Source of the DNA: Deferribacterales bacterium Deferri_01
Lineage (GTDB): Bacteria > Chrysiogenota > Deferribacteres > Deferribacterales > Geovibrionaceae
Reading direction: 5' to 3'
NCBI GenBank assembly: GCA_001603805.1
Contig: LUZY01000010.1
Coordinates: 124,001 to 188,000, forward strand
Length of the DNA stretch: 64,000 nt
The notes under the pieces were generated by a model. It saw nothing but the letters and a program-made list of their open reading frames with translations. It was not told the DNA's origin and searched no databases. Made by a program: the position numbers and the translations under genes. Below, one piece after another: positions 48,924 to 59,352 of this stretch. The stretch's first letter is position 1. The number at the start of each line of letters is the position of its first letter.

Positions 48924-50588
48924 ATGTCTTATCTTGCTTTAGCCCGAAAACTCAGACCCCAGAATTTTGATGAAATAGTGGCACAGGAATTTGTAGTCAC
49001 TACCCTCAAGAATGCCATAGAGCTGGACAGGCTTGTCCATGCCTATCTTTTCACCGGTCCCAGAGGGGTTGGCAAAACCAGTACGGCGAGAATTTTTGCA
49101 AAAGCGCTTAACTGCCTTGACCCCCAGGGAGTCAACCCCTGCAATAAATGCGAAAACTGCCGTGAGATAACCGACGGCACATCCATGGACGTAATCGAGA
49201 TAGACGGCGCATCCAACAGGGGCATTGACGAAATACGGGATCTCCGTGAGGCTGTGCGTTTTTTCCCTGTAAAGTGCCGTAAAAAAGTCTACATCATAGA
49301 CGAGGTTCACATGCTTACGGAGCAGGCGTTTAATGCTCTGCTCAAAACCCTTGAGGAACCTCCTTCCCATGTGGCGTTTATCCTCGCCACAACAGACGCA
49401 CAGAGGATACCGGCAACAATCATATCAAGATGCCAGAAGTATGACTTCCGCAAGATCCCTTTTGAAAAAATGCATGAATCTCTCACCGATGTGCTTAATA
49501 AAGAAAAGCTGGAATATGAGGATGACGCATTAAGCCTCATCATACGCAATTCCGACGGCTGCATGAGAGACTCCCTCTCCATGCTCGATCAGATAATAGC
49601 CTTCACCGGAGGCAAGGTTGATGAGGCAAACACTGCATTCCTTCTGGGCTTTTCAGATACAAACTTAATTGAAGACCTTCTCAAAACCATCCTTGAGGAA
49701 AACACCGCAGAAATACCTGCCATAGTTGAGGAAATATGTGCCAAAGGCATAAGCCTCCGTTTCGCAGCCGAATCCCTCATTGAACATACACGCAACCTGC
49801 TTTTCTATATATCCACAGGCGGAAAAAACACCAAGGAACTCACCAGCCACGAGGAAGAGCTTTATAAATCTCTTTCGGCAAAAGTCACAGAACACAGGCT
49901 TTTCGCACTGTTTCAAGTTTTTCAAAAACTGCTGAACGACCTTAAATTTTTCAGCTTTGAGCAGTATGTTTTTGAATTTGCCGCATACAAAGCCGCTTCC
50001 CTGTCTTCTGTTCTGCCTGTTTCATGCAGCACGGCAGCACTTACACAGGCTCCCGCAGCACCTGTTAAGCATAAAACTGCGGCGGAAAAGCCTAAACAGC
50101 AGGAACACAAAGAAACCCCCGCACATGCAGAACGTCAGGAAGAGCCGTCAGCAGGTGACGACCCATGGAAAAGCATGGTCCGCCACGCTGCCAGAGAAAA
50201 CGGAAAGGTTGCCGGATATCTGGAAAATGTATTCCTCTCCGGTGTGGCAGGCGATGAACTCCGCATAGGCACGACAGAAGAAAAAAAGTTTTATTTCAGA
50301 ATGCTTAATCAGCCGGAGCATCTTAAATATCTATCAGAGATAGCTGGAAAATTCTTCCCCGGTGTGACTAAAGTTAAAATGGCTCTGGAAAACGAGCCTA
50401 AAAAAAAAACTATAACTGAAACAAAAAAAGAAGCCGAAACCTACTATGATCGCAAAACCAGAAAAGAAGCGGAAGACAACGATCTTGTAAAAAAACTTCA
50501 AAAAGAATTCGGCGCTAAAATTGTTGATATAGAAGTAATTAAGGACATACCTGAGGAAGATATAGAACAGGAAGAAAGCCAGGATTAG
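48924..50588 (+). CDS. dnaX: DNA polymerase III subunits gamma/tau
   Basis: 554 residues. Seen: start MSYLALARKLRPQNFDEIV, Walker A GPRGVGKTSTARIFAKALNC, zinc-binding cysteines (C64 and CNKCENC), Walker B YIIDEVHML, SRC motif ISRCQKYDF, collar domain, then a charged linker rich in A, E, K, P and a C-terminal polymerase-binding part. Known: clamp-loader ATPase and polymerase coupling subunit. Odd: an A10 run at 50400-50409 (codons 493-496) with stops close behind in both other frames, like Thermus dnaX. There is no Shine-Dalgarno before the ATG, and candidate -35/-10 boxes (48884-48912) end about 12 bp before it, so the message may be nearly leaderless. Confidence 0.96.
   Translation: MSYLALARKLRPQNFDEIVAQEFVVTTLKNAIELDRLVHAYLFTGPRGVGKTSTARIFAKALNCLDPQGVNPCNKCENCREITDGTSMDVIEIDGASNRGIDEIRDLREAVRFFPVKCRKKVYIIDEVHMLTEQAFNALLKTLEEPPSHVAFILATTDAQRIPATIISRCQKYDFRKIPFEKMHESLTDVLNKEKLEYEDDALSLIIRNSDGCMRDSLSMLDQIIAFTGGKVDEANTAFLLGFSDTNLIEDLLKTILEENTAEIPAIVEEICAKGISLRFAAESLIEHTRNLLFYISTGGKNTKELTSHEEELYKSLSAKVTEHRLFALFQVFQKLLNDLKFFSFEQYVFEFAAYKAASLSSVLPVSCSTAALTQAPAAPVKHKTAAEKPKQQEHKETPAHAERQEEPSAGDDPWKSMVRHAARENGKVAGYLENVFLSGVAGDELRIGTTEEKKFYFRMLNQPEHLKYLSEIAGKFFPGVTKVKMALENEPKKKTITETKKEAETYYDRKTRKEAEDNDLVKKLQKEFGAKIVDIEVIKDIPEEDIEQEESQD
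50400..50409 (+). promoter_or_regulatory. A10 slippage site in dnaX
   Basis: Ten adenines after codon CCT, read as AAA AAA AAA A(CT). Losing one A gives ...AAA CTA TAA (stop); gaining one gives ...AAC TAT AAC TGA (stop). Products would be about 496 or 498 residues instead of 554. A second run, AAAAAAA at 50423-50429, follows with A_AAA_AAA in frame. Function is inferred from the known Thermus case. Confidence 0.6.
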
Positions 50589-50660
50589 TTTTTTTTTAAT
50601 TTTATTATTCCATTTTGAACCGAAATGATCTAAAACGTCAACCTTCAAACAAAAGGACGT

Positions 50661-52430
50661 ATGAATACTGAAAAACTAAAGGCTAGCCTTTCCAAATTCA
50701 GCCTGAGACGATATCTAGACGGACACGAAGATCTCTACATGCTTCTGACCGCCGTGGTTATAGGTCTGCTCGCAGGCGGCGGAAACATCATCTTCCGCCA
50801 TATGATCAGCTTCTTTCAGGGAATTTTCTACGGAGACACCTCCGAATTCGCACTTGAGACATTCAAAAACGCACCCATATGGAAAATTGTTCTTATCCCT
50901 GCTGCCGGCGGACTGATGGTCGGCTTAATCTCCATATCATTCAAATTTGCCAAAGGGCACGGCGTTCCTGATGTTATGCGTGCCATGGCTCTCAACCGCA
51001 ACATATCGCCCCTTGTGGCTCTTATAAAAACAGTTTCATCCGCAATAACCCTCGGTTCCGGCGGCTCGGCGGGACGTGAAGGTCCCATCGTGCAGATAGG
51101 TGCCGCCATAGGCTCCGGCGTGGGAAAGCTGTTAAGCTTTTCATCCAACAGGATGCGCACAGTTGCGGCATGCGGTGCGGCTGGCGGTCTGGCAGCCACT
51201 TTCAACGCTCCCATAGGCGGGGCTATGTTTGCGGCGGAAGTGCTTCTCGGTGAATTCGGGCTCAAGACATTCAGCCCGATCATTATCTCATCGGTAATAG
51301 CAACAGCCATATCAAGAGCATATCTGGGACATGAGGTAACATTCGACGCTCCGATATACGAACTGGTCAGCATCTTTGAACTTCCCCTTTACGGAGTTCT
51401 GGGGCTTGTTTGCGCAGTTGTGGGCGTTGTATTCATCCGCACTTTCTACTTTATAGAGGGCAAGTTTGAGCATCTTGCCATACCTTCATGGACAAAACCC
51501 GCCATAGGCGGACTGATGATGGGTTGTGTCGCCCTTGCCTCACCGGAAGTAATGGGAGTTGGGTATGACACAATAATGAACGTACTCCATGGGCACCAGT
51601 TGGGCGCTTTTCTAATAATTATTGTAGCACTCAAAATAATCGCAACATCCTTCACTCTGGGTTCAGGGGGAAGCGGCGGTCTCTTTGTCCCCTCCCTTTT
51701 CATAGGCGCTGTTACCGGCGGTTTCTTCGGATGGGCGGCTCACATAATATTTCCTGCAAGCACCGCAGGCAGCGGCGCATACGCTCTAGTGGCGATGAGC
51801 GCCATGCTTTCCGCCACACTGCGTGCGCCCATGACAGCAATACTTATAATATTTGAAATAACACAGTCATATACGGTAATTCTGCCCCTTATGCTTACGG
51901 CTATAGTCGCCAACCTCGCCGCAGAAAAGCTTGAGAAGGAATCTATATTCACATGGGTTCTCACCAAACAGGGAGTACGTATTAAGAAAGGGGTTGAGGA
52001 AAAAATCCTCGAATCGATTCATGTAAAAGACGTTATGTTCACTGGTGTAACATCCTTCAGAGAGAATACACCTTTCCGGGATATTCTCGCAGGGATACAG
52101 TCCGCCCCGCATATGCATTTCCCTGTTCTGGACAGCAACAACTGCCTCATCGGTATGATCTCCCTTGTTGATATCAAAGAAGTGCTGTTTGAGCAGGGGC
52201 TTGAGGATATTGTTGTGGCGGGGGACATCTGCACAAGGGAAAACGTTATCTATCTTGAGCCTGAAAACACCCTGACGGAAGCCATGGAAAAACTCGGCAA
52301 GAAGGATCTGGAAGCTCTCCCTGTTGTGGAAAACACACCTGAAGGATTGAAGTTTCTGGGACTTCTCCGCAGAGGGGATCTTATAATAGCCTACAACAAG
52401 CGTGCCGGACTGGCGGAAGCCTCCGCATAA
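50661..52430 (+). CDS. ClC-family chloride/proton exchanger with C-terminal CBS pair
   Basis: 589 residues. Seen: about 430-residue ClC core with KGHGVPDVMRAMA (the usual GSGIP filter has Ser replaced by His), GSGGSAGREGPIVQIGA carrying the external gate Glu, and GSGGSGGLFVPSL; then two CBS motifs (about 450-585; VKDVMFTGVTSFRENTPFRDI, LEALPVVENTPEGLKFLGLLRR). Known: the retained gating Glu (REGP) marks exchangers more than plain channels. CBS pairs sense adenine nucleotides. AAGGA lies 5 bp before the ATG. It is followed by the convergent rsgA gene's terminator. Confidence 0.94.
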   Translation: MNTEKLKASLSKFSLRRYLDGHEDLYMLLTAVVIGLLAGGGNIIFRHMISFFQGIFYGDTSEFALETFKNAPIWKIVLIPAAGGLMVGLISISFKFAKGHGVPDVMRAMALNRNISPLVALIKTVSSAITLGSGGSAGREGPIVQIGAAIGSGVGKLLSFSSNRMRTVAACGAAGGLAATFNAPIGGAMFAAEVLLGEFGLKTFSPIIISSVIATAISRAYLGHEVTFDAPIYELVSIFELPLYGVLGLVCAVVGVVFIRTFYFIEGKFEHLAIPSWTKPAIGGLMMGCVALASPEVMGVGYDTIMNVLHGHQLGAFLIIIVALKIIATSFTLGSGGSGGLFVPSLFIGAVTGGFFGWAAHIIFPASTAGSGAYALVAMSAMLSATLRAPMTAILIIFEITQSYTVILPLMLTAIVANLAAEKLEKESIFTWVLTKQGVRIKKGVEEKILESIHVKDVMFTGVTSFRENTPFRDILAGIQSAPHMHFPVLDSNNCLIGMISLVDIKEVLFEQGLEDIVVAGDICTRENVIYLEPENTLTEAMEKLGKKDLEALPVVENTPEGLKFLGLLRRGDLIIAYNKRAGLAEASA

Positions 52431-52457
52431 AAAAAGCGCACCCTTTAAGAGTGCGCC
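52429..52457 (-). terminator. Terminator after rsgA
   Basis: On the minus strand: GCGCAC-tcttaaagg-GTGCGC hairpin (52456-52436) followed by a T7 run (52435-52429). It lies 11 bp after the rsgA stop and also sits between the convergent ClC and rsgA genes. Confidence 0.85.
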
Positions 52458-52467
52458 TTATATGTAG

Positions 52468-53544
52468 CTATTTTCCTTTATTTTTTACATGCCGTTTCAT
52501 CTGCTTCATCTCGCCTTTTCCGCCGAACATTCTCTTTAGCTTCTCTTGTTCAGCCTGACGGAAGTTCAAACTGCCGTAGGTTATTTCACGCTGAAGCTTA
52601 AAATAATTTTTCAGGCGGTTTTCGGAAAGGCTGCCGTTCTCCACAGCGTTCAGCACGGCGCATCCCGGCTCTTTTGTATGTGTGCAGTCACGAAAGCGGC
52701 AGTCCGCAGCCAGAGCTTCTATATCACCAAAGGCTTTCGCCGTGTCGCCAGTGTAAAGATGCAGCTCACGCATACCCGGAGTATCTATAACCGCCCCGCC
52801 CTGCGGAAGCAGAAGAAGATGTCTGCCTGTTGTGGTGTGTCTCCCTCTGCCGTCACTTTCCCTGATTTCGTTAACGTCCATGACGTCTCTGCCCATCAGC
52901 CTGTTTATCAGGGTGGATTTTCCTACTCCGGACGAGCCGATGAAGGCAACAGTCTCACTATCTGCGATGAACTGGTTAAGGGCCTGCCATCCGTTTTCCT
53001 CAACACCGGAGCAGATAACAGTGTCAATCCCTTCACTCGCGGACGAGACATCGCCCAGCTTTTCTATAAGGTCAGTGCAGAGATCCGCCTTTGTCAGAAC
53101 AATGACGGGCTTCGCCCTGCTTTCCCATGCGGTTGTGAGATAACGCTCAAGCCTTCTCAGGTTGAAGTCGGCATTGACTGACATGCAGATAAACAAAGTA
53201 TCAACATTCGCCGCCACTGCCTGCGTATCGGCGGATGTTCCTGCCGCTCTGCGGACAAAAAGACTCCTGCGGGTGAGAACATGCTTTATCACCGCATCAC
53301 CAGATGCGCTGTCCTCACGGTCGGTCATAACCCAGTCGCCCACGGCTGGAAAGTCAATATTGCCTTCGGCTGTATGACGGAACTTCCCTGATACGGAAGC
53401 CTGTACCTCGCCGTTTTCCGTAACAACCCTGTATAAGCTGTGGCTCTGCCACGTTACTCTGCCTAGAAACAGTCCTTCAAAGCCTGAAGCCTCTTCTTCC
53501 GTCCGGTGATCCAGACCGTATTTTTTCAAATTAGTATAATTCAT
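52468..53544 (-). CDS. rsgA: Ribosome small-subunit-dependent GTPase A
   Basis: 358 residues from ATG 53544, with AGGAGG 5 bp upstream; a start 7 codons earlier is less likely. Seen: OB-fold N-terminus (GRVTWQSHSLYRVVTENGEVQASVSGKF), circularly permuted GTPase order with VLTKADL before the P-loop (GSSGVGKSTLINRLMG), DTPGMRELHL, and the zinc finger CRFRDCTHTKEPGC. Known: it checks late 30S assembly in the cytoplasm and is inhibited by (p)ppGpp. It is preceded by a probable 12-codon leader peptide with overlapping RNA helices, which suggests translation-linked control. Confidence 0.96.
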   Translation of the reverse strand: MNYTNLKKYGLDHRTEEEASGFEGLFLGRVTWQSHSLYRVVTENGEVQASVSGKFRHTAEGNIDFPAVGDWVMTDREDSASGDAVIKHVLTRRSLFVRRAAGTSADTQAVAANVDTLFICMSVNADFNLRRLERYLTTAWESRAKPVIVLTKADLCTDLIEKLGDVSSASEGIDTVICSGVEENGWQALNQFIADSETVAFIGSSGVGKSTLINRLMGRDVMDVNEIRESDGRGRHTTTGRHLLLLPQGGAVIDTPGMRELHLYTGDTAKAFGDIEALAADCRFRDCTHTKEPGCAVLNAVENGSLSENRLKNYFKLQREITYGSLNFRQAEQEKLKRMFGGKGEMKQMKRHVKNKGK

Positions 53545-53572
53545 TTCATCCTCCTGATTATGCACTGCATAC

Positions 53573-53623
53573 GGAGGGTAAGGAGATTATCTTCTGCACC
53601 CTCCTCAGGCTGGCGCAATCTCC
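53573..53623 (-). promoter_or_regulatory. Overlapping RNA helices in the rsgA leader
   Basis: Minus-strand order: GGAGATT (53623-53617, inside the leader peptide), GGAGGGT (53604-53598, just after its stop), AATCTCC (53588-53582), ACCCTCC (53579-53573). Arms 1 and 3 pair perfectly (7 bp) and arms 2 and 4 pair perfectly (7 bp), in a-b-a'-b' order. The two helices therefore form a pseudoknot or exclude each other. CCTCC of the last arm could instead pair with the rsgA ribosome site (AGGAGG, 53554-53549). Confidence 0.6.
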
Positions 53624-53643
53624 GTCTGATGTTTAAGTCTCAT
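53605..53643 (-). CDS. Probable 12-residue leader peptide of rsgA
   Basis: ATG at 53643 with a perfect AAAGGAG (53657-53651) 7 bp upstream, coding MRLKHQTEIAPA and a TGA stop at 53607-53605. It lies 60 bp before the rsgA ATG, on the same strand. Its codons 7-9 contain the first arm of one helix, and its stop directly precedes the arm of another. So a ribosome on it would change the folding of the rsgA leader. It is too short for homology; support is the ribosome site, spacing and position. Confidence 0.55.
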   Translation of the reverse strand: MRLKHQTEIAPA

Positions 53644-53763
53644 AAAACTTCTCCTTTGCTCATATTGATACCTGTTTATACCATATCATCAAAAAAAGGG
53701 TTCTTTTAATCTGCAGTTTTCCTTATAATTGAGCCTAATTAATTAAAAGGTGTCCGAATTATA

Positions 53764-55905
53764 ATGATCAATTACAAAAATGAACTCAATCAAGGTCAGT
53801 ATGAAGCTGTAGTGCGGACTGAAAGTCCTCTTCTTGTCCTTGCCGGAGCAGGTACAGGGAAGACAAGGGTTATCACCTACCGCATAGCTTATCTCATAAA
53901 TGAAATAGGCATAGAGCCCGAACGTATCCTCGCTGTTACATTTACAAATAAAGCGGCAGAGGAGATGAAACACCGACTCAGAGGGCTTGTGGGCCCTGCA
54001 TCAGGCTCTGTGTGGATGGGAACATTCCACAGCATATCCTTACGAATTCTCCGCAGGGACGGATCAGCAGTGGGTCTTAAGCCCGGCTTCGGGGTAATCG
54101 ATCAGGATGACCGCATGGCGCTGTTCCGTGAAGTAATAAAAACCCTGAAAATTGACCATAAAAAATACCCGCCCAAGCAGTACATGAACAAGATAAGCTG
54201 GTTTAAGAACACTCCGCAGTATGTGGAGCGCCAGATTCCCGATGCAGGTTCATTCCACAGGATTGACGAGGTATTCAGGGAATACCAGAAACGCCTTAAT
54301 GAGCAGTTCCTCATAGACTTTGACGACATGCTCAGTCTCACCATCCGCATGTTTGAAGTGTCCGAAGAGGTGCGTCAGTATTATTCATCCATGTTTGAGC
54401 ATATACTTGTGGACGAGTATCAGGATACAAACGCTATTCAGTTTATGTTCCTCCGCCTCCTTGCAGGCAGGAGCGGCAGAATATGTGTTGTTGGTGATGA
54501 TGATCAGTCGATCTACGGCTGGCGGGGAGCGGATATACGCAATATCCTCGAATTTGACAAGCACTTTGAAGATGTGGAAGTTGTCAAACTCACCGAAAAC
54601 TACCGCAGCACAGCGGATATAATAGCCAGAGCAAATACTCTGATCAAAAACAACGCCATGAGAAGGGGCAAGGAGCTTACCGCTCACCTTGAGGTCGAGG
54701 GAGCCCTTGAGCATCATTCCCTCCTGAATGAGACATCCGAGGCGGATTTCGTTACAAAAATGATCTCCAAGTACGCTGATGAAGGCGTAAGCTACGGTGA
54801 CATGGCGGTTCTTTACCGCACCAACGCCCAGTCACGTAACTTTGAAGTAAACCTTAACAAAGTCGGCATACCTTACAAGGTTGTGGGCGGCACGGCTTTC
54901 TACCAGAGGCGTGAAATCAAGGATCTTTTAAGCTATCTGCGTTTCTTTGACAACAGCTTTGACAGCGTCTCCTTTTCCAGAAGCCTCACCACCCCCTCAA
55001 GGGGAATAGGCACAACAACCATAGATAAAGTAAGAGACTTCGCATCCAGGAACGCCGTAAGTCTAATCGAAGCAGTGAAGCAGATGTTCCCCTCATTCAG
55101 CAGAAACCAGCAGGAGGGCTTCCGGCAGTACGTGGGAATGATGGATTACCTTGCCTCCTTTACCAAGGTCAGCGACATGGTGAACGGAGTCATAGAACGC
55201 ACAGGCTATAAAGACTATGTACTTGCGAACGAAAGTGAAGAGGAAGCGAAGAAAAGGATTGAAAACATCCACGAGCTTTACAACGCATCAGTGGCTTTTG
55301 AGGAAACATCACCCGAAGGCACACTCACAGACTTTCTCGCCAGCACATCCTTAAGCACATCAACGGATGAGGCATCAGGGGACAGGGTAAGCCTTATGAC
55401 GATCCACTCGGCAAAAGGGCTTGAGTTTGACACTGTGTTTCTTACAGGGCTTGAAAACGGGCTTTTTCCCCTTTACGGCAGTATAGATGAGCCGGAACAG
55501 CTTGAGGAGGAACGCAGACTCTGCTATGTGGGAATCACCAGAGCGAAGCGCAATCTTTACGTAACCTGCGCCGAATCCCGCATAATGTACGGTAACAGGA
55601 CAGTAAGCGCACGCTCCTACTTTCTGGAGGAGATGGGCTTTGCCAAGGCTAAGGCATCCTTTACACCGTCCACACGCCAGTTTGACCGTTTTCAGCCGAA
55701 GGCAAGAAAACCTATGCAACCTCAAGGTAAGGAAGCATCATCAAATTCAAAAGCAGGAAAAAAAGTCCGCCATGAGAAATTCGGTGACGGTATAGTGATA
55801 AGCACCAGCGGTGAAGGCGCTTCGGAGAAAGCAGAAGTTTTCTTTAAAAACGCCGGAGGGCTTAAAAAAATCGTCACAGCCTTCCTGACCTTCGTTGATG
55901 AATGA
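53764..55905 (+). CDS. pcrA: UvrD/PcrA-type DNA helicase
   Basis: 713 residues. Seen: NELNQGQYEAV Q-motif, Walker A LAGAGTGKTRVITYRIAYLI, FTNKAAEEMKHRL, the DEYQDTN Walker B, DDDQSIYGWRGAD, LTENYRST, MTIHSAKGLEF, RRLCYVGITRAK, and a C-terminal segment (KVRHEKFGDGIVISTSGEG) typical of PcrA-group proteins. Known: 3'-5' superfamily 1 helicase in repair and in removing bound proteins. PcrA versus UvrD naming is by convention; length and C-terminus fit PcrA/UvrD-like proteins. Its upstream region also carries the divergent rsgA leader. Confidence 0.94.
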   Translation: MINYKNELNQGQYEAVVRTESPLLVLAGAGTGKTRVITYRIAYLINEIGIEPERILAVTFTNKAAEEMKHRLRGLVGPASGSVWMGTFHSISLRILRRDGSAVGLKPGFGVIDQDDRMALFREVIKTLKIDHKKYPPKQYMNKISWFKNTPQYVERQIPDAGSFHRIDEVFREYQKRLNEQFLIDFDDMLSLTIRMFEVSEEVRQYYSSMFEHILVDEYQDTNAIQFMFLRLLAGRSGRICVVGDDDQSIYGWRGADIRNILEFDKHFEDVEVVKLTENYRSTADIIARANTLIKNNAMRRGKELTAHLEVEGALEHHSLLNETSEADFVTKMISKYADEGVSYGDMAVLYRTNAQSRNFEVNLNKVGIPYKVVGGTAFYQRREIKDLLSYLRFFDNSFDSVSFSRSLTTPSRGIGTTTIDKVRDFASRNAVSLIEAVKQMFPSFSRNQQEGFRQYVGMMDYLASFTKVSDMVNGVIERTGYKDYVLANESEEEAKKRIENIHELYNASVAFEETSPEGTLTDFLASTSLSTSTDEASGDRVSLMTIHSAKGLEFDTVFLTGLENGLFPLYGSIDEPEQLEEERRLCYVGITRAKRNLYVTCAESRIMYGNRTVSARSYFLEEMGFAKAKASFTPSTRQFDRFQPKARKPMQPQGKEASSNSKAGKKVRHEKFGDGIVISTSGEGASEKAEVFFKNAGGLKKIVTAFLTFVDE

Positions 55906-55910
55906 AAAAC

Positions 55911-55940
55911 TTGAAAATACAGCACAGATAAGGGTATAAT
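55911..55940 (+). promoter_or_regulatory. Promoter of the gatCAB operon
   Basis: TTGAAA (55911-55916), 18-bp spacer, consensus TATAAT (55935-55940), immediately after the helicase stop and about 97 bp before gatC. A GGGG precedes the gatC ATG by about 9 bp. Confidence 0.7.
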
Positions 55941-56036
55941 GCTGTTTTTGCGGTATTATAAAGAGCGGTCTGCCCTTAAAGCGGCACCGCAGAATTGCAG
56001 AAAATAATAAACTAACCATAACAAGGGGTTATACAG

Positions 56037-56324
56037 ATGTCCATAACCGATAAAGACGTAAGGCACATAGCCAAGCTTGCCCGTCTGAAAGTTGAAGACG
56101 GTGAAGTGGAGAAGCTTGCCGGAGAACTCGGCTCGATTCTCAATTACATACAGAAGCTTGAAGAACTTGACGTAACCGGTGTTGAACCCACTTCCCACGT
56201 TCTTGATCTCTACAGCGTAACAAGAGCAGACGAGGCTAAACCCTCTCTCGGTACAGAAAAAGCCCTCGCAAATGCTCCGGAAGCCGAACACGGCCACTTC
56301 AAGGTTCCAAGGGTGATAGAATGA
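56037..56324 (+). CDS. gatC: Asp/Glu-tRNA amidotransferase subunit C
   Basis: 95 residues. Seen: ITDKDVRHIAKLARLKVEDGEVEKLAGELGSILNYIQKLEELDVTGVEPTSHV, the full GatC pattern, ending HGHFKVPRVIE. Known: it stabilises GatA in the enzyme that amidates mischarged Glu-tRNAGln or Asp-tRNAAsn. Its last codons contain GGTGATAGAATGA, which is repeated before gatA, so the native arrangement was probably an ATGA overlap with gatA. Confidence 0.96.
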   Translation: MSITDKDVRHIAKLARLKVEDGEVEKLAGELGSILNYIQKLEELDVTGVEPTSHVLDLYSVTRADEAKPSLGTEKALANAPEAEHGHFKVPRVIE

Positions 56325-56449
56325 TTGGTTCTGCTGAAAAAAACAAAAAATCCGGTTTCTTTGGAAGGAGTCTGAGAAAACCTTTCTTTTCCGTTAAAGA
56401 AAGGTTTTTTCAGAAAAAGAGCCTTACTTTCAACATGGTGATAGAATGA
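56312..56449 (+). repeat. 13-bp direct repeat flanking a 112-bp insert between gatC and gatA
   Basis: GGTGATAGAATGA occurs at 56312-56324 (containing the gatC stop) and again at 56437-56449 (containing the gatA ATG), 125 bp apart. Between them lies a 112-bp sequence with a 19-bp-stem hairpin. Each copy reads ATGA at its end, so one copy can serve as stop of gatC and start of gatA together. This has the form of an insertion with target duplication or a slipped duplication. Confidence 0.7.
56371..56414 (+). terminator. Terminator-like hairpin between gatC and gatA
   Basis: TCTGAGAAAACCTTTCTTT (56371-56389) pairs with AAAGAAAGGTTTTTTCAGA (56396-56414), one G-T wobble, TCCGTT loop. The T6 on the 3' side gives it bidirectional intrinsic-terminator form. 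Inside an operon it should reduce gatAB transcription relative to gatC unless read through. Confidence 0.6.
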
Positions 56450-57909
56450 ACATTATAAACATGACATTAAAAGAAATGAGTGCTGCTCTTCAGGAAAAGA
56501 AGCTTTCCTCTAAGGAGCTTGTCTCATTTTATCTGGATAGGATAAAGAAATATGACGGCGATGTGCAGGCATTTCTTCATGTGAATGAAAATGCCGTCAA
56601 ACAGGCAGAAGAGATTGACGCAAGAAGAGCGAATGGAGAAGCTCTCCCTGCCCTTGCGGGTATTCCCATTGCACTGAAGGATCTTATAGTCACCGATGAT
56701 ATGCCTACCACATGCTCATCACGCATATTGAAAGACTTCCGTGCGCCTTATAACGCCACAGTAACAGACCTTATCAAAAAAGAAGGGATGATTGTCCTCG
56801 GCAAACTCAGCATGGATGAATTTGCCATGGGTTCATCAAACGAAACCTCATACTATAAACAAACCCGCAACCCGTGGGATCTAACCCGTGTTCCGGGCGG
56901 CTCAAGCGGCGGCTCTGCGGCATCTGTTGCAGCAGGGCTCACCCCTGTTGCACTGGGGAGCGACACAGGCGGCTCAATACGCCAGCCCGCATCACTCTGC
57001 GGTGTTGTGGGGCTTAAACCCACATACGGAACAGTTTCCCGTTTCGGGCTCATCGCCTTCGCCTCCAGCCTTGACCAGATAGGCACATTCTCCCGCACTG
57101 CGGAGGACGGAGCTTTGGTTCTTTCTGCAATAGCAGGGCATGACCCCAAGGATTCCACATCCGCACCCGTTGCCAAGAAAGACTACACAGCGGAACTGAC
57201 AGGGGACATAAAAGGGCTGAAAATAGGCATACCCACGGAATTCTTCGCTGAAGGGCTTGACCCTGTTGTGAAGGAGCGTGTGGAAGCAGGAATAGCAAAG
57301 CTTAAAGAGCTTGGCTGCGAACCTGTGGAAATCAGCATGCCCCATACGGACTATGCTGTTTCAGTTTACTACATAATAGCCACCGCAGAAGCATCAAGCA
57401 ACCTTGCCCGCTTTGACGGTGTGAAGTACGGCTACAGAGCCGAAAGCGAAAACCTGTACGACATGTACACTGCAACCCGCTCCGAAGGCTTCGGACCGGA
57501 AGTAAAGCGCAGAATCATGCTCGGGACATATGTTCTCAGTGCCGGATACTATGACGCTTACTACATAAAAGCCCAGAAGGTTCGTACACTTATCAAGCAG
57601 GATTTTGAAAAGGCATTCGAGAAAGTGGACGCCATAATATGCCCCACCTCTCCATCCACTGCGTTTAAATTCGGCGAAAAATCATCCAACCCGCTTGAGA
57701 TGTATTTGAGCGACATATACACCATCTCCCTGAACCTCTACGGCGGCTGCGGGCTCTCAGTCCCCTGCGGATTTGACAACAGCGATCTTCCCGTGGGGAT
57801 GCAGATCCTCGGCAAATACTTTGAGGAAGGGAAAATAATGAATATAGCCCACGCTTTCCAGCAGGCTTCCGGCGTATCAACAGATGTACCCGAAGGATTT
57901 AAAGGATAG
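56446..57909 (+). CDS. gatA: Asp/Glu-tRNA amidotransferase subunit A (amidase)
   Basis: 487 residues. Seen: amidase signature with the Ser-cisSer-Lys triad: Lys in GIPIALKDLIVT, the glycine/serine-rich GGSSGGSAASVAAGLTPVALGSDTGGSIRQPA carrying the two serines, and the C-terminal LNLYGGCGLSVPCGFD. Known: it releases ammonia from glutamine and channels it to GatB. The ATG is in the second copy of the 13-bp repeat; GGTGA 5 bp upstream may be the ribosome site. gatB follows 3 bp later. Confidence 0.97.
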   Translation: MNIINMTLKEMSAALQEKKLSSKELVSFYLDRIKKYDGDVQAFLHVNENAVKQAEEIDARRANGEALPALAGIPIALKDLIVTDDMPTTCSSRILKDFRAPYNATVTDLIKKEGMIVLGKLSMDEFAMGSSNETSYYKQTRNPWDLTRVPGGSSGGSAASVAAGLTPVALGSDTGGSIRQPASLCGVVGLKPTYGTVSRFGLIAFASSLDQIGTFSRTAEDGALVLSAIAGHDPKDSTSAPVAKKDYTAELTGDIKGLKIGIPTEFFAEGLDPVVKERVEAGIAKLKELGCEPVEISMPHTDYAVSVYYIIATAEASSNLARFDGVKYGYRAESENLYDMYTATRSEGFGPEVKRRIMLGTYVLSAGYYDAYYIKAQKVRTLIKQDFEKAFEKVDAIICPTSPSTAFKFGEKSSNPLEMYLSDIYTISLNLYGGCGLSVPCGFDNSDLPVGMQILGKYFEEGKIMNIAHAFQQASGVSTDVPEGFKG

Positions 57910-57912
57910 ATT

Positions 57913-59352
57913 ATGAAATACGAAGCTGTCATAGGGCTTGAGGTACATGCTCAGCTCTCAACAAAATCAAAGATATTCTGCTCCTGCTCCACTGCCTTCG
58001 GAGCTGAAGCAAACTCTCAGGTATGCCCCATATGCCTCGGAATGCCCGGCACACTTCCGGTGCTGAACGAAAAGGTTGTGGAATACACAGTTAAGGCGGG
58101 ACTCGCCGTTGGCTGCCGCATTGCAGAAAAAAGCATATTTGCACGCAAGAACTACTTTTATCCGGATCTGCCCAAAAACTACCAGATTTCCCAGTACGAG
58201 CTGCCCACCTGCATAGGCGGTGAGATAAATGTTGAGCTTGAAGACGGAACAAAGAAAACAATAGGTCTTACCCGAATCCACATAGAAGAAGACGCCGGAA
58301 AATCGATACACGGTGAAAACCTCGGTTCAGCAGGCAACAGCTTTATCGATCTCAACCGTACCGGAACGCCCCTTATGGAGATAGTTTCCGAGCCGGACAT
58401 GAGATCAGGTGAAGAGGCAAGAGCCTACCTCACCAAACTTAAATCTGTTTTGAAATACCTTGATATAGCAGACTGCAACATGGAAGAGGGCTCTCTCCGC
58501 TGTGATGCTAACGTATCTATCCGTCCTGTTGGTCAGAAAGAACTCGGCACAAAGGCAGAGATCAAAAACATGAACTCCTTCCGCAATGTGCAGAAGGCTA
58601 TTGAATATGAAATCCGCCGTCAGGAAAAGCTGCTGAACGAAGGCGGACGTGTTGTTCAGGAAACAAGGCTCTGGGACGCCGCCAAAGGCATCACAGTGTC
58701 CATGAGGAGCAAGGAAGAGGCTAACGACTACCGTTACTTCCCCGACCCTGACCTTGTGCCTATAGTGCTTGATGAGAAATATGTCGAAGCTGTCCGTGCC
58801 ACCCTGCCGGAACTTCCTGACGCTAAGATGGCACGCTTCATGAGTGAATATGCCCTGCCGGAGCATGACGCCATAGCGCTCACCGCAGAAAAAGCATACG
58901 CCGACTACTTTGAGGAAGCTCTCAAAGGGTTCAGCAACCCTAAAATGATCGCAAACTGGATTCTCTCCGAGGTATTAAGCACCCTGAATGAGAAACAGTG
59001 CGGAATATTTGAGTCGGGCATCAGTCCCCTTCAGCTTGCAGAACTTGTCAGCCTCATAGACAGCGGCAAAATCAGCGGCAAGATAGCGAAAGATGTTTAT
59101 AAAGCCGTGATAGATTCGGGCAAAAACCCTGCGAAGATCGTTGAAGAGCAGGGGCTCGTGCAGAACTCAGACTCCGGCGAGCTTGAAAAGATCGTACAAC
59201 AGGTTATAGACTCAAGCCCCGCAGAAGCTGAACGTTATAAAAACGGCGAAAAGCGCCTTCAGGGCTTCTTTGTCGGTCAGGTTATGAAGCTTTCCAAAGG
59301 GAAAGCAAACCCTCAGATGGTTAACGAGATTATCGCAAAACTTCTGGGCTAG
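57913..59352 (+). CDS. gatB: Asp/Glu-tRNA amidotransferase subunit B
   Basis: 479 residues. Seen: [20 protein letters not shown], zinc-type cysteines (CSC ... CPICLGMPG), [51 protein letters not shown], and a C-terminal YqeY/GatB tail ([24 protein letters not shown]). Known: it phosphorylates and amidates the mischarged tRNA. No separate GlnRS- or AsnRS-type evidence is in the window. A long hairpin follows the stop. Confidence 0.97.

Follow-up and report, generated by a model that had tools for sequence, protein, structure and literature searches.

The accessory GTPase gene rsgA2 of Deferribacterales bacterium Deferri_01 appears to be controlled by a translational attenuator at positions 53549-53657 (minus strand) of the window, by which we mean the whole 64,000-nucleotide stretch of contig LUZY01000010.1 (positions 124,001 to 188,000) analyzed here. 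We put the probability at roughly two in three that this leader is an erm-like attenuator with three arms, that the same switch sits on genes for RNHCP-domain proteins and GNAT acetyltransferases, and that the set answers to ribosome blockage. The leader open reading frame (ORF), both helices, their conservation, and the target genes are read from the sequences themselves, and from these we infer the stall, its trigger, the polarity of the switch, and the function of the proteins. The mechanism is a variant of leader-peptide translational attenuation. Searches of the open PMC literature found no description of an rsgA leader peptide, and to the extent of these searches four things are new: the switch, the three-arm form it takes, the genes it targets, and the connection of RsgA2 with RNHCP and GNAT. 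The parts of the locus are as follows.

53651-53657, minus strand: Shine-Dalgarno (SD) sequence AAAGGAG of the leader ORF, read from the sequence; an SD-led leader is also present in relatives.
53605-53643, minus strand: leader ORF, MRLKHQTEIAPA-stop, 12 codons plus TGA, read from the sequence and included in the alignment of 35 hand-picked leaders.
53614-53622, minus strand: E-I-A codons, the local form of a conserved [DE]-I-[VA] motif and a candidate stall site.
53598-53604, minus strand: region 2, GGAGGGT, 5' arm of the predicted antisequestor helix P1, immediately 3' of the leader stop.
53582-53588, minus strand: AATCTCC, arm a' of the earlier note, whose partner GGAGATT (53617-53623) is found in the window genome only; probably not functional.
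53573-53579, minus strand: region 3, ACCCTCC, which serves as 3' arm of P1 or, in the alternative fold, as 5' arm in the predicted SD sequestor P2.
53559-53571, minus strand: TATGC-AGT-GCATA hairpin within P2 (fold of 53545-53578, -10.6 kcal/mol, z = -2.55).
53550-53555, minus strand: region 4, AGGAGG, the SD of rsgA, predicted to be sequestered in P2 (from the sequence, the P2 tests, and the fold).
52468-53544, minus strand: rsgA2, an accessory RsgA-type GTPase of 358 aa (TIGR00157, E = 5e-47; PF03193, RsgA_GTPase, E = 5e-52; tree).
52433-52459, minus strand: terminator-like hairpin 3' of rsgA2, weak by itself (2 in the region against 1.9 expected from shuffles).

The leader starts with the ATG at 53643, separated from AAAGGAG by 7 nt, its stop codon occupies 53607-53605, and the rsgA start codon is the ATG at 53544; an earlier note on this DNA, which described the SD, the 7-nt spacing, the ATG, and a 12-codon frame ending directly before a 7-nt arm, had read these elements correctly. 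No sigma-70-like promoter was seen in a simple scan of the region. A helicase-like gene (53764-55905, plus strand), presumably of the UvrD/PcrA type, diverges from rsgA2 and is the upstream neighbor in two same-genus genomes as well. Folded by itself, the single window leader is only slightly more stable than expected by chance, with z = -2.0 over its full length, -2.5 for a 72-nt part, and -2.6 for the SD-sequestering hairpin. If these were chance hairpins beside a chance ORF in a single genome, a single-sequence z of only about -2 would be in keeping, but this reading is contradicted by all of the cross-species results and, already refuted by conservation, retains next to no probability. It is because the feature is conserved, and not because of its single-sequence fold, that we consider it more than chance.

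The protein encoded by the controlled gene scores 160.5 bits against the TIGR00157 cut-off of 100, and in a quick tree of 100 rows (four of the 104 intended, L005, L140, L257, and L258, are absent) it lies outside the canonical RsgA clade, with separating branches of SH-aLRT 99 between 14 canonical and 86 other rows. In the same quick tree, the three rows from the window's genus fall within a Clostridia/Synergistota clade, apart from seven other rows of the same family. At least two RsgA proteins above the cut-off, canonical and accessory, are present in 19 of the 21 genomes behind the relatives' loci (mostly Bacillota), the remaining two, both Synergistaceae, having one; in the window genome, rsgA2 is the sole RsgA above the cut-off. 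Because of its tree position and the second-copy pattern in relatives, we conclude from sequence comparison that the gene in the window encodes an accessory RsgA acquired by horizontal transfer, and name it rsgA2.

The distribution of rsgA2 is patchy. A protein search of 39 genomes gave a match at E = 3e-51 or better in 11 of 12 members of the window's family (the window's own genome included), and one short match only in the other families of its order. When 50 genomes of the phylum were searched with the family profile, 13 had a protein above the cut-off, 11 from the window's family and 2 from a distant one. The best relatives outside are in Bacillota and Synergistota, and matches at E = 1e-50 or better are present in Clostridia (48 of 245 genomes), Synergistota (23 of 120), and Bacilli (108 of 250). 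Plasmids contribute 183 records with any match, all below 60% identity; on a Lysinibacillus fusiformis plasmid (L168, 2492-5102), the accessory rsgA adjoins a metG gene and a gene for fosfomycin resistance. An excerpt of PMC7278804 mentions an rsgA2 from Lactobacillus plantarum.

Short SD-led ORFs are strongly enriched upstream of these genes. Counting ORFs of 9-26 codons at non-redundant accessory loci in three similarity classes, we found one before 29 of the 38 closest RsgA loci (shuffles: mean 5.0, maximum 10) and before 24 of 43 and 19 of 57 in the other two classes (shuffle means 6.8 and 5.3); canonical rsgA genes have one at 5 of 18 loci (shuffles: mean 2.0, maximum 5). All 11 rsgA-bearing members of the window's family carry such an ORF upstream of rsgA. 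Outside the window's genus, the family has other peptides, such as MFTNISRNPIV-stop and MKLTTQPKKVIASGR-stop, and other hairpins, which are missed by R1, a covariance model that we built from 33 leaders. These leaders from the family's other genera (L004-L011) often start with TTG or GTG and end in ...IASAL, ...PIV, or ...PIA before the stop, followed by long hairpins, and their rsgA genes belong to a different RsgA lineage.

Within the clade formed by Clostridia, Synergistota, and the window's genus, the pattern is uniform: M-x(5-7)-[DE]-I-[VA]-x(3)-[GRK]-E-V-x(3-6)-stop, where the E-V codons are the GGGAGG arm; in the window's genus, the stop lies directly upstream of the arm. This leader architecture is present in 32 of 41 rows of the wider tree clade and absent from 9. 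Of the 12 rows grouped around the window, six have the leader and six lack it, and one of the leaderless genes (L172) adjoins a switch-bearing RNHCP gene.

The earlier note had asked whether leader frame and arms persist in relatives, and they do: the ORF, a GGAGG/CCTCC helix (P1), and a CCTCC/SD helix (P2) all recur across 35 hand-picked leaders, with region 2 starting 38-44 nt past the leader start in every one. Because the cores were located through the patterns GGAGG and CCTCC, their pairing is no independent evidence, and the permutation of arms therefore concerned the bases beside the cores, comparing pairing with an arm's own partner to pairing with another species' partner in 33 non-redundant leaders (the near-identical L216 and L219 being excluded from tests of this size). 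Flank pairing of region 3 with the gene's SD in P2 gave z = -6.0 (0 of 5000 permutations) against z = -0.6 for a reversed-arm control. Conservation of the ACCCTCC-SD pairing described in the earlier note extends far beyond the window's genus. For P1, flank pairing of region 2 with region 3 gave z = -6.3, but since the reversed-arm control still reached z = -4.3, part of this signal is composition or palindromy. Pairs flanking the P1 core vary in a compensatory way across the 33 leaders, both on its outer side (GC 19, CG 3, AT 3) and on its inner side (GC 4, TA 10, TG 10, CG 4). RNAalifold on a MAFFT alignment recovered the six-pair P1 core only, since region 3 is out of register in several rows.

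P1 (2:3) and P2 (3:4) are predicted to be mutually exclusive through their common region 3, with P1 the more stable by folding in 33 of 33 leaders. The conserved ORF and helices accordingly support the earlier note's proposal of a leader that is translated and whose mutually exclusive pairings, of the ermC/cat type, govern access to the rsgA SD. Its arrangement of two 7-bp helices in a-b-a'-b' order fared less evenly: GGAGGGT/ACCCTCC is conserved, while GGAGATT/AATCTCC exceeds chance in a single leader of the 33, that of the window, and does no better than chance in the two same-genus species. For this reason the pseudoknot order is probably an accident of the window genome, and we have dropped GGAGATT/AATCTCC both as a pseudoknot and as a mutually exclusive helix. 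A 1:2 helix, joining the early leader to region 2, likewise exceeds chance in only 1 of the 33 leaders, and the classical four-arm erm scheme was dropped with it. In one Clostridia genome (G227), two rsgA copies (L176 and L321) keep the leader start and lack region 2, a natural variant of the switch in which the SD sequestor alone remains.

The peptide is conserved at a defined place. Among 86 leaders from three gene families, for which all figures are descriptive, the related sequences not being independent and the rows found with R1 favoring the model's spacing, [DE]x[VA] occurs near region 2 in 65 (codon-shuffled mean 6.8, maximum 13) and [DE][ILV][VA] in 49 (mean 1.7, maximum 6), and in 63 of the 65 the first base of the motif's third codon is 11-12 nt before region 2 (12 nt for E-I-A in the window). 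The leader stop varies, lying upstream of region 2 in 20 of the 86, as in the window, and downstream in 66. This set does not include L284, L295, L351, and L352, the later-fetched L353-L356, a further nine leaders from genomes already counted (L303-L306, L308-L311, L321), and L333, a near-copy of L057; the start codons of L338 and L342 were misparsed in it. To our knowledge, [DE]-I-[VA] matches no known arrest motif. The usual reach of a halted ribosome is about 15-16 nt, so that if the Ile codon occupied its P site, the leading edge would lie just at region 2.

Two other readings of the conserved stretch have to be weighed against a stalling peptide. It could be mainly an RNA element that binds a protein or ligand, with the ORF incidental, and both the good conservation of the GGAGATTG letters themselves and the predominance of ATT at the second motif position (36 of 49 codons) would suit this. 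However, SD and start codon are conserved while the stop codon is free to move, the D/E, I/L/V, and V/A exchanges are conservative amino-acid substitutions, all four third bases occur at the last position, and no Rfam family matched above its gathering score in 50000-58000, all of which makes an RNA element improbable. An attenuator responding to amino-acid starvation, for example of isoleucine, would be in line with the single Ile codon common within the motif; we consider it very improbable, since many leaders have Leu, Val, Thr, Ser, or Asn in place of Ile and the three target families are not biosynthetic.

If the motif does arrest ribosomes, the switch would operate through the position of the ribosome on the leader. 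Ribosomes would translate the 12 codons and, on reaching the stop codon, the terminating ribosome would sit on region 2 (GGAGGGT) and block P1, leaving region 3 (ACCCTCC) to pair with the rsgA SD as P2, the OFF state. A ribosome halted with [DE]-I-[VA] at its P and A sites would instead have its leading edge just short of region 2; with region 2 free, the more stable P1 would form, occupy region 3, and expose the rsgA SD, the ON state. An untranslated leader would also be expected to be ON because a competing upstream 1:2 helix is absent.

This last property invites a different account, in which the leader senses translation globally and without peptide-specific arrest: efficient leader translation would keep P1 open (OFF), and a drop in initiation or elongation would let P1 form (ON), so that rsgA2 would answer to ribosome supply, close to the feedback idea of the earlier note. 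The greater stability of P1 in all 33 leaders and the missing 1:2 helix mean that lack of leader translation alone should switch the gene on, and the window genome has no other RsgA above the cut-off. Such a sensor, however, would have no reason to keep [DE]-I-[VA] codons at a fixed spacing, and the RNHCP and GNAT genes under the same switch also speak against it; we regard it as unlikely, if by no means negligible.

For the arrest-based attenuator, the most likely trigger is ribosome blockage, caused by a compound resembling an antibiotic or by some related stress on translation. A response to translation inhibitors is favored because the gene is accessory and mobile and because of two precedents, Listeria hflXr in the excerpts of PMC6310831 and a WblC-activated Streptomyces paralog in those of PMC7157823. 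An inducible stress- or resistance-like factor also fits better than assembly feedback, given the separate clade, the absence from other families of the order, and the switch common to RNHCP and GNAT genes. The suggestion in the earlier note that rsgA is governed by feedback thus stands insofar as a response to the state of translating ribosomes is concerned; as feedback on a housekeeping assembly gene it is not favored, for the same reasons and because relatives carry second RsgA copies. A WblC-type promoter motif (regular expression taken from an excerpt of PMC7157823) was found before 0 of 18 actinobacterial copies, several of these loci being the same place fetched twice, and the idea of such a promoter was dropped.

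Searches with R1 show how far the switch extends. Among 39 Deferribacterota genomes, it found only the three rsgA leaders of the window's genus, one per genome. The earlier note had proposed a comparison within Deferribacterota; the closest relatives are in fact in Bacillota and Synergistota. In 120 Synergistota genomes, 42 matches were found, one per genome, with 18 before rsgA2 and 24 elsewhere. On inspection of all 24, 22 lie directly before genes for RNHCP-domain proteins of about 135 aa (PF12647, E = 4e-37 and 2e-39 in two tested proteins), and the last two are a tandem degenerate copy and a match without an ORF (E = 0.035). At one Synergistota locus (L295), several tandem degenerate CCTCC...AGGAGG units precede a broken RNHCP-like frame. 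The 240 Clostridia gave 21 matches: 10 before rsgA2 (one partly masked and one a 179-aa frame, both called by the RsgA N-terminus), 6 before RNHCP genes, and 5 before GNAT acetyltransferase genes (about 208 aa). In 398 genomes of the same phylum as the Clostridia, R1 gave 26 new loci, comprising 18 rsgA2, 3 RNHCP, 3 GNAT, 1 orphan copy, and 1 false match. The GNAT gene of a Selenomonas plasmid has the same leader, LRNNTLEIAG-stop. That one switch is common to rsgA2, RNHCP, and GNAT genes across distant bacteria suggests a shared response to blocked ribosomes.

The three families are also linked independently of the leader. RsgA is fused to RNHCP in Enterococcus malodoratus and to GNAT on a Roseburia plasmid, with a second GNAT-RsgA frame read off the translation of a Lachnospiraceae MAG; RNHCP and rsgA overlap as a gene pair on a Vibrio coralliilyticus plasmid, and in two Clostridia genomes leader-RNHCP units adjoin rsgA2. 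On a Streptomyces plasmid (L326, 2045-3515), two RNHCP genes are neighbored by an FBP_C gene and by a short frame for an aminoglycoside phosphotransferase; we take FBP_C to be the zinc-finger family that includes the fusidic-acid protein FusB. No PDB homolog of RNHCP was found, nor any paper on it in the open PMC literature, and a single-sequence structure model of one RNHCP domain (L108) was poor (mean pLDDT 51.7). Tentatively, and at clearly less than even odds, rsgA2, RNHCP, and GNAT may form a mobile ribosome-defense set that clears or repairs inhibitor-blocked ribosomes and is turned on, in three phyla or more, by one attenuator family in which the [DE]-I-[VA] peptide encoded by the leader arrests the inhibitor-bound ribosome.

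The closest known design is ermC-type translational attenuation, which combines a leader peptide with sequestration of the SD. Both systems have a short SD-led leader ORF, competing helices of which one masks the downstream SD, and a candidate arrest site just 5' of the switching arm, with the peptide at a fixed distance from it (11-12 nt in 63 of 65 leaders here). They differ in that ermC-type leaders have four arms and the rsgA2 switch three, without the protecting 1:2 helix, which is why the untranslated leader should be ON here; the targets are different too, as is the peptide, [DE]I[VA] not being a known Erm motif. ermC-type attenuation is described in passing in the excerpts of PMC6310831, whose own subject, Listeria hflXr (lmo0762) behind the rli80 leader, is a further likeness: there, too, the second copy of a ribosome-associated GTPase, and not the housekeeping copy, is under a small ORF and alternative RNA structures. 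As described in those excerpts, hflXr is controlled by transcription attenuation with an RLR peptide and is reported to confer lincomycin and erythromycin resistance; the rsgA2 switch, in contrast, is predicted to be translational, has another peptide, and serves an RsgA-type GTPase (30S side). An HflXr-like paralogy may hold for the 19 of 21 sampled genomes with at least two RsgA copies, but the window genome has this copy only. In Streptomyces, one of the two RsgA/EngC paralogs SCO6149 and SCO5211 is reported, in the excerpts of PMC7157823, to be activated by WblC under tetracycline; by this description, the WblC/WhiB7-regulon member resembles rsgA2 as one of two paralogs, and, unlike rsgA2 with its leader switch, it is controlled by a transcription factor.

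These results turn a one-genome curiosity into a testable regulon, in which a widespread second RsgA, the RNHCP family, and an acetyltransferase share a leader-peptide switch and are joined by fusions. Should the switch be flipped by a ribosome inhibitor, then the regulon would protect or rescue ribosomes through a type of pathway for which we found no description in the open PMC literature, and the arrest peptide could serve directly as a reporter in the search for the inducer.

Other leader designs occur before accessory rsgA genes. In Planococcus (L074 and L077), the leaders end in ...SPSVYR-stop followed by a terminator-like hairpin, and these genes seem to be under transcription attenuation. 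In Brevibacillus-like Bacilli (L236, L237, L248, and L067), three of four leaders contain EIV or EIA, and the RNA downstream has another design, in which GGAATCCTCC in the leader faces GAGGATTC and the rsgA SD GGAGGAATCC.
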